A stretch of DNA of 50,468 nt from contig CAMBAL010000010.1 in assembly GCA_945864225.1 (NCBI GenBank), positions 1 to 50,468 of the forward strand, given 5' to 3'. Shown here piece after piece: positions 8,040 to 46,964 of this stretch. Source of the DNA: an uncultured Blautia sp. GTDB lineage: Bacteria; Bacillota; Clostridia; Lachnospirales; Lachnospiraceae. The notes below the pieces were generated by a model. It did not search any database and was not told where the DNA came from. It saw nothing but the letters and a program-made list of their open reading frames with translations. The first letter of the stretch is position 1. Every line of letters begins with the position of its first letter. The translations under genes were made by a program, and so were the position numbers.

Positions 8040-8084
8040 GTTTGCAAATTGTGACGCACATCTGTCGGAAAGCAATTTGCAAAC
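8040..8084 (+). repeat. Palindromic intergenic repeat, copy 1
   Basis: GTTTGCAAATT (8040-8050) pairs perfectly with AATTTGCAAAC (8074-8084). Positions 8044-8078 match 33128-33162 at 34 of 35 bases. Shorter pieces recur near 23607, 30772 and 50085. It resembles a small MITE-like or REP-like element and may also act as a terminator for the dehydratase gene. Confidence 0.65.
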
Positions 8085-8122
8085 AAATTTTAGTAAAGAA
8101 CACAGTTCTTATGTCAGAGAAG

Positions 8123-23445: not shown

Positions 23446-23481
23446 TGAAAAAGAAGCGAGAGTAATCCCGCTTCTTTTTCA
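23446..23481 (+). terminator. Terminator of the yedE unit
   Basis: TGAAAAAGAAGCG (23446-23458) pairs perfectly with CGCTTCTTTTTCA (23469-23481). Confidence 0.75.
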
Positions 23482-23514
23482 TATTACAGGAAAGTGCTCC
23501 GCATTTTCCTGTTA
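23481..23514. repeat. ATTACAGGAAA hairpin repeat, copy 1 (degenerate)
   Basis: ATATTACAGGAAAGTGC ... GCATTTTCCTGT matches the perfect hairpins at 24187-24237 and 28244-28292, with the right end changed. Confidence 0.6.
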
Positions 23515-24186: not shown

Positions 24187-24237
24187 CTTTTTTATATTAC
24201 AGGAAAGTGCTTTGCATTTTCCTGTAATATAAAAAAG
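24187..24237. repeat. ATTACAGGAAA hairpin repeat, copy 2
   Basis: CTTTTTTATATTACAGGAAA (24187-24206) pairs perfectly over 20 bp with 24218-24237, around GTGCTTTGCAT. It lies directly after greA and probably ends its transcript, although the T run is in the left arm. Confidence 0.75.
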
Positions 24238-26918: not shown

Positions 26919-28250
26919 ATGAAACAGAAAATCATGAATTATGGAAGTTTTCTTGTGATCCTGTCTGTACTGCTGACTTTTTTTGCAGCCAGTTTTGTTA
27001 TGTATGATAAATTCAACAGCAGTATGAAACAGGATGTGAGGTCGGAAGCAGACTATATCAGTGCCGGTATCAGAACATGCGGAGAAGCCTATCTTACACA
27101 GGAGGTTGGGGATTTTACGGATACCAGAATTACACTGGCAGATTCCGGGGGAAATGTCCTTTTTGATTCCGTGAAATCTCCGTCCTCACTGGAAAATCAC
27201 AGCAACCGTCCTGAATTTATACAGGCAAAAAAAGAGGGTAGCGGGGAACTGGTGAGATTTTCCGATACCTTTTCGGAACAGACATTTTATTATGCAGTAC
27301 AGCTGGATGACGGCAGCATTCTGAGAGTGGCAAGAACGACAGACAGCGTTTTTCATACAATGCTGTCTAGTTTTACACTGCTGGGACTTCTGATTGTTGT
27401 GATACTTGTTCTGGCCTTTTTTCTGGTGCAGAAACAGACCAGAGAGCTGATCAAACCGATCAATGAACTGGATCTGGAGCAGCCGCTGAAGAATGTATGC
27501 TATGAGGAATTGCGTCCTCTTCTGGTGCGTGTAGATCAGCAGAACAAACAGATTATCCAGCAGGTAAAAGAGCTGAAAGAGGCGGAAGCAATGCGCAGAG
27601 AGTTTTCTGCGAATGTATCTCATGAATTGAAGACACCTCTGATGTCGATTTCCGGTTATGCAGAGCTGATGATGAACGGAATGGTTCCCCAGGAGAAGGT
27701 ATCTGATTTTGCCGGGCGTATTTTTCATGAAGCCAGCCGTCTCAGCTCAATGGTAGCTGATATTATTCAGCTTTCCCGGCTGGATGAGAAGAATACGGAG
27801 ATGGATTTTGAAACGGTGAATCTTTATGAGCTGGCGGAGGATGTGATCTCTCATCTGAAAGCTTCCGCAGATAAAAAGAAGATTTCCATCAGTCTGGATG
27901 GTGACGCACAGGTGGTAAATGGGGTGCGTCAGGTGCTGTACGAGATGATTTATAATGTGGCGGATAATGCAGTGAGATATACCAATGAGGGTGGTAAGGT
28001 AAACATCTTTGTAGGGAAAAAGAGAGGGCATGTATGCTGCCGGGTGGAAGATAATGGAATTGGGATTCCTTCGAATGAACAGAAACGTGTTTTTGAGAGA
28101 TTTTACCGTGTGGATAAAAGCCATTCCCGCCAGACCGGAGGTACAGGGCTTGGACTATCGATTGTGAAGCACGGAGCTGCACTGCATCATGCAGAGATAA
28201 AGCTTACCAGTGAACCCGGACAAGGGACGATTATGGAATTGATTTTTTAA
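26919..28250 (+). CDS. Sensor histidine kinase (PhoR-like)
   Basis: 443-residue membrane kinase. Two transmembrane helices (about residues 9-29 and 149-170) flank an extracytoplasmic sensor domain with FDSVKSPSSLENHSNRPEF, like that of PhoR proteins. A linker and dimerisation domain follow with phospho-acceptor His235 in FSANVSHELKTPL, then the ATPase domain with N, G1, F and G2 motifs (NVADNAVRYTNEGG, VEDNGIGIPSNEQKRVFERF, GGTGLGLSIVKH). No PAS domain is evident. Its stop codon falls inside the left arm of a long hairpin repeat. Confidence 0.92.
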   Translation: MKQKIMNYGSFLVILSVLLTFFAASFVMYDKFNSSMKQDVRSEADYISAGIRTCGEAYLTQEVGDFTDTRITLADSGGNVLFDSVKSPSSLENHSNRPEFIQAKKEGSGELVRFSDTFSEQTFYYAVQLDDGSILRVARTTDSVFHTMLSSFTLLGLLIVVILVLAFFLVQKQTRELIKPINELDLEQPLKNVCYEELRPLLVRVDQQNKQIIQQVKELKEAEAMRREFSANVSHELKTPLMSISGYAELMMNGMVPQEKVSDFAGRIFHEASRLSSMVADIIQLSRLDEKNTEMDFETVNLYELAEDVISHLKASADKKKISISLDGDAQVVNGVRQVLYEMIYNVADNAVRYTNEGGKVNIFVGKKRGHVCCRVEDNGIGIPSNEQKRVFERFYRVDKSHSRQTGGTGLGLSIVKHGAALHHAEIKLTSEPGQGTIMELIF

Positions 28251-28292
28251 TATTACAGGAAAATACTTCGCATTTTCCTGTAATATTAAAAA
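28244..28292. repeat. ATTACAGGAAA hairpin repeat, copy 3
   Basis: TTTTTAATATTACAGGAAAA (28244-28263) pairs perfectly with 28273-28292 around TACTTCGCA. It supplies the TAA stop of the kinase gene. Confidence 0.75.
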
Positions 28293-29339: not shown

Positions 29340-29380
29340 GTTACTATTTGTTACTGTTTATGGAGAAAGAGACGAGGAGT

Positions 29381-29446
29381 AAGTTTGGAAGTGAACTTCC
29401 AAATCTACCATTATTGACGCAGCAAGTGCGTCAGGAAAGAGGAAAA
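29381..29446 (+). repeat. Duplicated 66-bp leader element, copy A
   Basis: Identical over 66 bases to 46154-46219. It contains the palindrome TTTGGAAGTGAACTTCCAAA (29384-29403), the hairpin TGACGC-AGCAAGT-GCGTCA (29415-29433), and a ribosome binding site (AAAGAGG). It ends one base before the ATG of the YbaK-like pseudogene. Confidence 0.9.
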
Positions 29447-29447
29447 G

Positions 29448-29776
29448 ATGGGAATTGTACAGGTAAGAGAATATTTCAGAAAATACAATATGGAAGAGAG
29501 AATTGTGGAGTTTCAGGAGTCTTCCGCGACCGTGGAACTTGCGGCACATGCGGTGGGATGTGAGCCTGCACGAATCGCCAAGACACTTTCCTTTAAAGTG
29601 GAAGATCAGCCGGTGTTTCTGTATATCTGGATATTTCCCTGAAGCGCTTTGACACGGTATTTCCGGCCGCAGGCAGCAGCAACAGCGCGATCGAGCTGAA
29701 TATGGAAGAACTGGAGAAATATTCCGGCAGTCTTGGCTGGGTGGATGTGTGTAAAAACTGGTGCATTGAGGAATAA
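29448..29776 (+). pseudogene. Broken YbaK/ProX-like aminoacyl-tRNA deacylase
   Basis: The first 56 codons (MGIVQVREYFRKYNMEERIV ... VGCEPARIAKTLSFKVEDQPV) match the N-terminal part of YbaK/prolyl-tRNA editing proteins, which hydrolyse mischarged tRNA. The frame then shifts and stops at 29642. In the next frame VSVYLDISLKRFDTVFP, AAGSSNSAIELNMEELEKYS and GWVDVCKNW are the family's C-terminal part, ending at 29776. About 50 central residues of the usual 155-160 are missing, so an internal deletion with a frame change has destroyed the gene. It sits behind copy A of the 66-bp leader. Confidence 0.85.
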
Positions 29777-30709: not shown

Positions 30710-30766
30710 GGGTGTTTCCTCGCAAAAAACTGAATCATAATAAAAGGTTAGAGCGTGCATATGACG

Positions 30767-33078: not shown

Positions 33079-33127
33079 CCGCAGGATGTCAGTTAGTGGA
33101 GGCAGTGCATCGAATCACAAATTTCCT

Positions 33128-33175
33128 GCAAATTGTGACGCACATCTGTCAGAAAGCAATTTTCAGACACGCTCT
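33128..33175. repeat. Palindromic intergenic repeat, copy 2
   Basis: The first 35 bases match 8044-8078 with one difference; the right end continues as TCAGACACGCTCT. Confidence 0.65.
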
Positions 33176-45711: not shown

Positions 45712-46167
45712 ATGATCATAGAAACGAGAACTACAGAAGAAACATTTGCATTGGGCGAGAAGGTCGGAAGATGTGCCAGACCCGGACAGATTTATACATT
45801 GACAGGTGACCTTGGCGTGGGAAAGACTGTTTTTACCCAGGGAGTTGCGGCCGGTCTCGATATTACGGAACCCATCAGCAGTCCTACATTTACTATTATT
45901 CAGGTATATGAAGGGGGAAGACTGCCATTTTATCATTTTGATGTATATCGTATCGGTGATATTGAAGAGATGGAAGAAATCGGTTATGACGATTATTTTT
46001 TTGGAGAGGGAATCTGTCTGATCGAGTGGGCAAATCTGATTGAGGAGATTCTTCCGGAGAAGCTGATACGGGTTACTATAGAAAAAGATCTGGAACAGGG
46101 GTTTGACTACCGTAGGATTATAATTGAAGGTCTGGATGATGATTTTGGAGGTCAAGTTTGGAAGTGA
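45712..46167 (+). CDS. tsaE: tRNA threonylcarbamoyladenosine biosynthesis ATPase TsaE
   Basis: 151-residue ATPase required, with TsaB and TsaD, to make t6A at position 37 of ANN-decoding tRNAs. The P-loop is GDLGVGKT (residues 32-39), followed by the family stretch ISSPTFTIIQVYEGGRLPFY and HFDVYR. The ATG at 45712 gives the standard short N-terminus. The last codons (VWK and the TGA stop) lie within copy B of the 66-bp duplicated element, so its original C-terminus may have been altered when that element arrived. Confidence 0.93.
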   Translation: MIIETRTTEETFALGEKVGRCARPGQIYTLTGDLGVGKTVFTQGVAAGLDITEPISSPTFTIIQVYEGGRLPFYHFDVYRIGDIEEMEEIGYDDYFFGEGICLIEWANLIEEILPEKLIRVTIEKDLEQGFDYRRIIIEGLDDDFGGQVWK

Positions 46168-46219
46168 ACTTCCAAATCTACCATTATTGACGCAGCAAGT
46201 GCGTCAGGAAAGAGGAAAA
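46154..46219 (+). repeat. Duplicated 66-bp leader element, copy B
   Basis: Identical to 29381-29446. It holds the tsaE stop codon in its first palindrome (46157-46176), a TGACGC/GCGTCA hairpin (46188-46206) and the ribosome binding site for tsaB, ending one base before the tsaB ATG. Confidence 0.9.
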
Positions 46220-46220
46220 A

Positions 46221-46964
46221 ATGAAAATATTAGCACTGGACAGTTCCGGAATTGTGGCATCGGTTGCTGTTGTGGAGGATGACACACTTCTGGCGGAATA
46301 TACCGTAAATTACAAAAAAACACATTCTCAGACGCTGCTTCCCATGCTGGATGAGATTGTAAAAATGACAGAACTTGATATGGATACAGTAGACGCCATT
46401 GCTGTTGCAGCCGGTCCGGGATCATTTACAGGCCTGCGTATCGGTTCTGCTACAGCCAAGGGACTGGGGCTTGCTCTTAAGAAACCGTTGATTCCGGTAC
46501 CGACAGTGGATGCGCTGGCTTATAATCTGTATGATGCCGGAGGGCTGATCTGTCCCATTATGGATGCCCGGAGAAATCAGGTATATACAGGAATCTACCG
46601 ATTTGAGAATCACAGACTGTCTGTTCTGAAAAGCCAGTGGGCAGGGGCTGTCACGGAACTTCTGGAGATGCTGAATGAAATGGGAGAACCAGTGACATTT
46701 CTGGGGGATGGCGTGCCTGTATTCCGCCAGGTGATCTCAGAAACACTGCAGGTGCCGTTTTCATTTGCACCGGCCCATGTGAATAAACAGAGAGCAGCAG
46801 CAGTTGCCGCTCTTGGTCTGGAATATTATAAAGAAGGAAAAACAGAGACTGCGATGGAACATTGTCCGGATTATCTCAGGGTATCTCAGGCGGAACGGGA
46901 ACGTGCACAGAGGGAAAAGGCTGCAGAGGCAGCAGGAAACCGTGACGGGGAGGCTGCTTTATGA
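46221..46964 (+). CDS. tsaB: tRNA threonylcarbamoyladenosine biosynthesis protein TsaB
   Basis: 247-residue ASKHA-fold partner of TsaD, beginning MKILALDSSGIVASVAVVED and containing AVAAGPGSFTGLRIGSATAK near residue 56, the family hallmark. Its ribosome binding site is supplied by the duplicated 66-bp element, so its translation may be controlled separately from tsaE. The end overlaps rimI by an ATGA. Confidence 0.94.
   Translation: MKILALDSSGIVASVAVVEDDTLLAEYTVNYKKTHSQTLLPMLDEIVKMTELDMDTVDAIAVAAGPGSFTGLRIGSATAKGLGLALKKPLIPVPTVDALAYNLYDAGGLICPIMDARRNQVYTGIYRFENHRLSVLKSQWAGAVTELLEMLNEMGEPVTFLGDGVPVFRQVISETLQVPFSFAPAHVNKQRAAAVAALGLEYYKEGKTETAMEHCPDYLRVSQAERERAQREKAAEAAGNRDGEAAL

Follow-up and report, generated by a model that had tools for sequence, protein, structure and literature searches.

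A hairpin repeat of about 63 bp at translation start sites of Blautia and other Lachnospiraceae, very probably a non-autonomous mobile element

Two identical copies in the window

The window, i.e., the whole stretch of 50,468 nucleotides analysed here, comes from an uncultured Blautia sp. and contains the same 66-bp sequence twice, once before the remains of a YbaK-type gene and once between tsaE and tsaB. A direct comparison of positions 29381–29446 with 46154–46219 found identity over all 66 bp (66/66), and the copies lie 16,773 bp apart, as the original prediction of an identical pair about 16.8 kb apart had it. Both show the layout Shine–Dalgarno (SD) motif, a few bases, element, one base, ATG. 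In the list below, the SD motifs were read from the sequence, which also supports the call of tsaE.

29374–29379, + strand: SD-like GAGGAG upstream of copy 1
29381–29446, + strand: element copy 1, before the broken YbaK-type gene; identical to copy 2, 91.2 bits to model R1
29384–29403, + strand: hairpin 1 of copy 1, TTTGGAAGT-GA-ACTTCCAAA (folds; pair changes across 44 copies)
29385–29387, + strand: TTG of copy 1, in the place of a start codon relative to the upstream SD (translation LEVNFQIYHY*)
29415–29433, + strand: hairpin 2 of copy 1, TGACGCA-GCAAG-TGCGTCA (folds; variable pair A-U/G-C/C-G)
29438–29442, + strand: element-borne SD of copy 1, AGAGG, 5 nt before the ATG at 29448
29448–29642, + strand: remaining 64-aa ORF of the broken YbaK-type gene (no Pfam match; relative with PF04073 in genome G013)
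45712–46167, + strand: tsaE (PF02367)
46147–46151, + strand: native SD of tsaB, GGAGG, common to the empty site in G013
46154–46219, + strand: element copy 2, between tsaE and tsaB (net +63 bp vs. the empty site in G013)
46157–46176, + strand: hairpin 1 of copy 2 (fold)
46188–46206, + strand: hairpin 2 of copy 2 (fold)
46211–46215, + strand: element-borne SD of copy 2
46221–46964, + strand: tsaB (PF00814)

Both copies stop exactly one base short of an ATG (29448 and 46221), as had been claimed, and the ribosome binding site predicted for each is found as the SD-like AGAGG 5 nt upstream of that ATG. A second SD-like motif lies directly 5′ of each copy (29374–29379 and 46147–46151). The predicted 9+2+9 palindrome is present as hairpin 1. 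Hairpin 2 was anticipated as well, as a 6-bp hairpin; the hairpin itself stands, but its stem is one pair longer, i.e., 7 bp with a 5-nt loop. Relative to dinucleotide shuffles, the 100-nt contexts of the two copies fold with z-scores of −3.02 and −2.45. The TTG at 29385–29387 opens a frame of 10 codons followed by a stop.

The identities first given to the two downstream genes were right. PF00814 identifies tsaB, and tsaE (PF02367) adjoins it directly upstream; the tsaE stop codon falls within hairpin 1 of copy 2, and the last TsaE residues are thus derived from the element. The YbaK-like gene had been called a pseudogene, and its relative in G013 is 156 aa long with PF04073, vs. 64 aa and no Pfam match for the ORF in the window.

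Other repeats were also seen in the window. A 43-nt repeat occurs at 8043–8085 and 33127–33169 with 93% identity, with a weak third copy (60%) at 30742, and a 39-nt hairpin-like repeat occurs three times (23474–23512, 24187–24225 and 28243–28281; 87–92% identical to the first).

Copies in the same genome and empty sites

The genome of the window (G000; 2.67 Mb in 115 contigs, 84% complete) holds nine copies according to a whole-genome search, i.e., seven besides the pair. Four are identical over 66 bases and two over 65, two have one mismatch, and one is older (95% over 62 bases). Compared over 54 bases, the eight full copies are on average 99.5% alike, which is not chance and looks like a recent burst; over the same length they are 82–90% identical to copies in the genomes G009, G030 and G047 and 57% to G292.

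The nearest relative found at tsaB is G013, whose TsaB is 90% identical and whose genome has no match to the element model. At tsaB, G013 reads ggaggacaaaaATG, vs. ggaggtc-(63 bp)-aaaaATG in the genome of the window, a net difference of 63 bp. A second empty site was found for the copy on contig 90, where GAGGTGTAAAGATG in G013 corresponds to GAGTTGT-(63 bp)-AAAGATG, again +63 bp in the same place. At both sites the insertion lies within the native SD-to-ATG spacer, and the native SD stays upstream. The tsaE stop of G013 overlaps the tsaB start; on our reading of the two sequences, the insertion would have parted the genes and altered the last residues of TsaE. Of 60 genomes, 56 have a TsaB match, and 30 of the loci were retrieved: that of the window, 12 in opposite orientation and 17 with a tsaB start readable in the orientation compared. 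In none of these 17 relatives, G013 included, does the tsaB start have the element. It counts against mobility that these two empty sites are the only fully alignable ones. The comparison with G013 at contig 52 is not clean, and upstream of the YbaK-type gene the DNA of G013 does not align, giving no empty-site comparison.

Elsewhere, the same gene (99% identical) has a single unit in G012, and in G020 it has two in tandem that differ in sequence. Since the extra unit differs from its neighbour, it is not a simple slippage product.

Some copies in the genome of the window are placed differently. That on contig 107 (locus L015), before a DUF896 gene, is old and has a diverged left end; the SD upstream of it is not recognisable, and the SD of the element may now be the only one that the gene has. 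The copy on contig 51 has no start codon in register, and that on contig 72 precedes an ATG that begins no gene, suggesting that targeting follows sequence and not gene function, with a lost gene as the other possibility.

Register to start codons and unit length

With a profile built from 44 of them, 251 distinct copies were gathered at E below 1e-6; a larger set comprises 297. An ATG follows after 0–1 nt in 204 of the 251, and within 4 nt in 243 of the 297. Within the DNA examined, 214 of these 243 open a frame of at least 40 codons and 29 a shorter one. The other 54 divide into 19 with GTG or TTG within 4 nt, three followed by another unit, and 32 with neither. Judged by eye, about 15 of the 19 are the start of the next tandem unit, several of the 32 are copies in which the profile ended early and an ATG stands a few bases further on, and some 12–16 of the 297 have no start codon in register. 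Copies in related genomes are thus many, and they sit mostly at start codons rather than at random.

The left flank was analysed in 184 of the 251 copies, namely those with an in-register ATG, an almost complete left end and a flank of 30 nt or more. It is SD-like, i.e., matches AGGAGG in at least 5 of 6 positions within 16 nt, in 110/184 copies, vs. 45/184 shuffled flanks and 10/183 at −40 to −25. On the other side, the element-borne SD appears in the 184 copies as a purine-rich G-R-R-G motif at −9 to −6.

The units also stack in tandem, at a spacing of 61–63 bp in 22 of 29 neighbouring pairs (63 bp 15 times, 62 bp five times and 61 bp twice); spacings of 51, 53, 64, 70, 72, 80 and 104 bp occur once each, the last spanning two short units. 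The 63-bp spacing is found in Fusicatenibacter, Scybalocola and G337, and G047 shows 62 bp four times, 63 bp twice and 80 bp once. Among the 248 copies with a nearly full left end, 229 carry an NTG near that end (TTG 188, GTG 27, CTG 11, ATG 3); the short type of G020 and G028 has none. The distance from this NTG to the ATG of the gene peaks at 63 (95 copies), 62 (67), 61 (22) and 80 (16), and the unit sizes are 61–63 bp for the main types, 51–53 bp for the short type and about 80 bp for an extended type.

The ends of the element (GTNTG... and ...GGNAA) are not inverted repeats, and at the two empty sites the target duplication amounts to at most AA, which is inseparable from the element ends. 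Where two units meet, the junction SD-AA-GT-NTG looks like a start site. We infer that the crossover falls at the AA, which can be assigned to neither side.

An in-frame 21-codon insert was considered as a coding function and is rejected in general, because three does not divide the unit lengths of 61, 62, 80 and 53 bp. At two loci of G337 (L380 and L381) the element begins with ATG and the frame is open into the gene, so that every tandem unit could lengthen the protein by 21 codons; at L382 the frame stops within the element.

Hairpin pairing and predicted accessibility

In the alignment of 44 copies, 93.8% of 632 cells pair, and compensatory changes occur in the hairpins. Cells changed on both sides number 39, vs. 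10.7 in shuffles, a value that none of 500 shuffles reached, and every slid control of the pairing is far lower. Counted by pair, the excess is weak: six pairs changed on both sides vs. 4.0 in shuffles (reached in 43/500), and 17 further pair types vs. 14.8 (reached in 51/500). Five of the eight modelled pairs of hairpin 1 show changes on both sides and three vary on one side only, with 12% of its cells unpaired. Hairpin 2 has one variable pair, changed on both sides in 22 of the 44 copies; among 187 copies it is A-U in 108, G-C in 62, C-G in 8, G-U in 6 and mismatched in 3. The letters of hairpin 2 outside this pair, and parts of its loop, were fixed by the search pattern, so that their invariance proves nothing. 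Positions 44 and 47 of the small loop covary as well (C-G in 138 and T-A in 34 of 187). In an extended form, the hairpin 2 loop itself contains a small third hairpin; a text pattern found 23 such copies, all in G047. At another locus (L205, 4533–4652), a palindromic repeat (GTAACTGTTCAGCTGGCTGAACTGTTAC...) is apparently inserted in the hairpin 2 loop of an element copy.

The original prediction also held that the structure might be switchable. This finds no support in the analysis, which covered single-sequence folds of the two window copies and the predicted accessibility of the start region. In 182 copies, the predicted cost of opening the SD–ATG region is 3.25 kcal/mol with the element, 3.55 for the empty site and 3.50 with the upstream part shuffled, i.e., the region is equally open in all three, and the differences are not significant (p 0.20 and 0.15). 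A better SD accessibility conferred by the element was rejected for the same reason. Because the predicted accessibility is unchanged, near-neutrality of the insertion would rest on position, not on folding.

The element had not been recognised as a described one, and the searches agree with this: Rfam gave nothing over it, neither in the window at the gathering threshold nor at six loci at relaxed thresholds, and no description of it was found in the open-licence literature.

Distribution across genomes

The host range is patchy. The element model matches 16 of 60 Blautia genomes, with at least 87 copies in G047 (every one of 87 scored candidates; 91 distinct copies in the DNA examined), 20 in G030, 17 in G009, 12 in G028, nine in the genome of the window and 1–6 in the others. 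Across the family, 11 of 299 Lachnospiraceae genomes match; three of these are at or near 17 scored candidates, so that their counts are to be read as at least that many. Across the class, two of 391 genomes match, both of them Lachnospiraceae. Strict filters in such large sets lose weak matches, and these absences are thus approximate. A pattern scan of GTDB gave, among the matches listed, 26 of 80 from one Fusicatenibacter genome, three clear chance matches (Brevibacillus, Allochromatium and Alcaligenaceae) and one from a MAG named Emergencia, where the layout is the usual one.

That phages, plasmids or viral contigs carry the element was rejected for the collections searched: the exact pattern has no match among 2.9 million viral contigs, and one 66-base query has none in 50,697 phage and 72,556 plasmid records. 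No longer, autonomous version appeared among the matches in the genome of the window or among 40 of 136 scored candidates in G047, where the partial matches examined are copies whose hairpin 2 loop holds an additional hairpin.

Another dispersed repeat, of the GTGCATCATAAAGCGTGTTACTG...CAGTAAC type and about 55 bp long, lies within 120 nt upstream of the element at one locus of the genome of the window (L006, contig 13). It is found in many places in the Blautia genomes G038, G023, G059, G058 and G001, each of which has 16–42 query matches, nearly all of those listed being this other repeat.

Downstream genes

Scanning of seven downstream proteins from the genome of the window found TsaB (PF00814), an ABC-transporter-like protein (PF06541), a DUF896 protein and four without a Pfam match, the broken YbaK-type ORF among them. 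A comparison of the 214 downstream proteins with 40 or more residues found just 32 related pairs (E 1e-5, first 150 residues), some of which are tandem self-matches or generic ATPase-like pairs. Recurrent targets include a gene common to G026 and G047, which we take to be ssb, and one common to G047, G030 and Fusicatenibacter, presumably yrdC-like. By a rough estimate, this recurrence is near chance level for genomes with tens of copies; the few targets that recur across hosts would reflect some site preference or some inherited copies. With downstream genes mostly unrelated and recurrence near chance, there is no sign of a regulon.

A probable mobile element directed to start sites

Very probably, these sequences are very short, non-autonomous mobile elements that insert, in one orientation, into translation-initiation regions. 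The original prediction of a mobile translation-initiation module gains support from the further copies, from their placement at start codons and from the two clean empty sites. To these we add the insert length, the single orientation, an SD on both sides, tandem stacking and conserved pairing. The insertion point is after the SD, directly before the last two or so bases preceding the start codon, and the element supplies two hairpins together with its own SD and A-rich spacer at the 3′ end. With this 3′ end, the gene retains an in-register ribosome-binding site, and the insertion is probably near-neutral. The simplest route would be an excised or circular unit joined at the AA in the initiation region by an enzyme that acts in trans and makes no long target duplication. 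However, neither an enzyme nor an excision product was found, and some copies lie away from gene starts (those on contigs 51 and 72, the 12–16 judged by eye to have no start codon in register, and the 29 with ATG frames below 40 codons).

As to the enzyme, the element might be the relic of an IS110/IS900-type system, in which a DEDD recombinase with a guide RNA would read the SD-to-start region and act via a circle with a short core; we consider this unlikely, though conceivable. IS900 inserts between an SD and a start codon, and its target choice is the best precedent for the element, although this choice of site is that of IS900 and not of the whole family. The target motif is given as CATGNNNNNNTCTCCTT in the portion of the IS900 source available (PMC8141618), and on the other strand we would read it as an SD, six bases and CATG. 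According to the same portion (PMC8141618), IS900 has neither terminal inverted repeats nor a flanking target duplication; the element likewise lacks terminal inverted repeats and a long target duplication. The accessible text of a further source describes circle formation by IS110-type elements (PMC11187229). However, IS900 is 1,451 bp long with a transposase (PMC8141618, same portion), whereas the element is about 63 bp and gene-less, brings a replacement SD, has no recognisable guide RNA in its 63-bp unit and is tracked by no IS110 gene. PF01548 has no match in the copy-rich genomes G047, G030, G028, G223 and G337 (among 12 searched, some incomplete), whereas the copy-free G013 has three PF01548 matches. 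Among 64 loci that include Y1 and IS110 surroundings, one good match to the element profile was found, a partial one at L433, a locus included because a frame of 1,439 codons matched PF01548 below the cut-off. The link to IS110 is thus not supported in the five rich genomes, and such an enzyme, if responsible, has either disappeared in the meantime or escaped detection where genomes are incomplete.

It is rather doubtful that the element is REP-like or derived from IS200/IS605, with a Y1 transposase moving it in single-stranded form. REP/REPIN and IS200/IS605-derived palindromic elements are small, non-autonomous, strand-specific hairpin units, and the element is also a small hairpin unit in one orientation, with two hairpins near its two ends, a small loop with covarying positions 44 and 47, and no long target duplication. 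In addition, the genome of the window, G030, G047 and G026 contain matches over most of the Y1 family profile. However, such matches are also found in genomes with no copy (G001, G024 and G052) or one (G023), whereas G009 (17 copies) and G028 (12) have only short or stop-broken ones. No element copy lies near 29 Y1 loci (24 of the 29 in a first scan, best E 0.36), and none of these transposases is flanked by element hairpins. The guide sequence that IS608 has beside its hairpin needs room at the left end; with hairpin 1 about 2 nt from that end, there is none. A Y1 link was looked for, not found and rejected. The element differs from these families also in its register to start codons.

A cis-regulatory RNA, i.e., a translational leader of a regulon whose hairpins bind a protein or ligand and control the SD, with selection on the genes keeping the copies, is very unlikely. 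The position before start codons and the paired hairpins with compensatory changes are what such a leader would show. However, the downstream genes are mostly unrelated, the ground on which a regulon was rejected, and have little in common between hosts; the tsaB orthologues lack the element (17/17 readable), within a single genus the counts run from none to at least 87, the element also sits before a broken gene and at several gene-less places, no Rfam family covers it, and its predicted openness is unchanged. Just as improbable is an origin without mobility, by gene conversion, template switching or tandem slippage between start sites with SD-like microhomology in common: SD and A-rich bases on both sides of most copies and the tandem arrays fit it, but the common homology is under about 10 bp, the tsaB flanks are native up to the junction on both sides, about 90 dispersed copies occur in one genome, and the extra unit of G020 differs from its neighbour.

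Among other small repeats, MITEs (e.g., Correia and ERIC) are likewise non-autonomous, short and multi-copy, but the ends of the element have no terminal inverted repeats and there is no clear target duplication beyond the ambiguous AA. BOX, RUP and SPRITE of Streptococcus pneumoniae resemble it in being short, structured, dispersed, seemingly parasitic and modular in size. Judging from the portion of the pneumococcal source available (PMC3049150), BOX averages 122 per chromosome, and BOX and RUP show terminal inverted repeats as well as target duplications and lie between convergent genes more often than expected, whereas the element is placed at start codons with an SD.

Implications for translation initiation

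A tentative extension of the start-site-directed mobile element, to which we give low confidence, is that the excised unit itself mimics a start site. Its joined ends, SD-AA-GT-NTG, would recombine with real starts and give a tandem start, in which the native SD would serve the NTG of the element and the element SD the gene. The product from the NTG would be a 10-codon leader peptide at copy 1, and at two places in G337 its frame would run on into the gene. If this were true, the element would act as a module that spreads by itself and rewires how translation starts genome-wide.

As a short non-autonomous mobile repeat, the element is unusual in its target and in bringing a replacement ribosome-binding site. 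It points to a recombination activity with start-site specificity. With about 90 places in one genome, it amounts to a naturally occurring exchange of translation-initiation regions across the genome in common gut bacteria, and it offers a direct test of how far the SD region is replaceable without harm.
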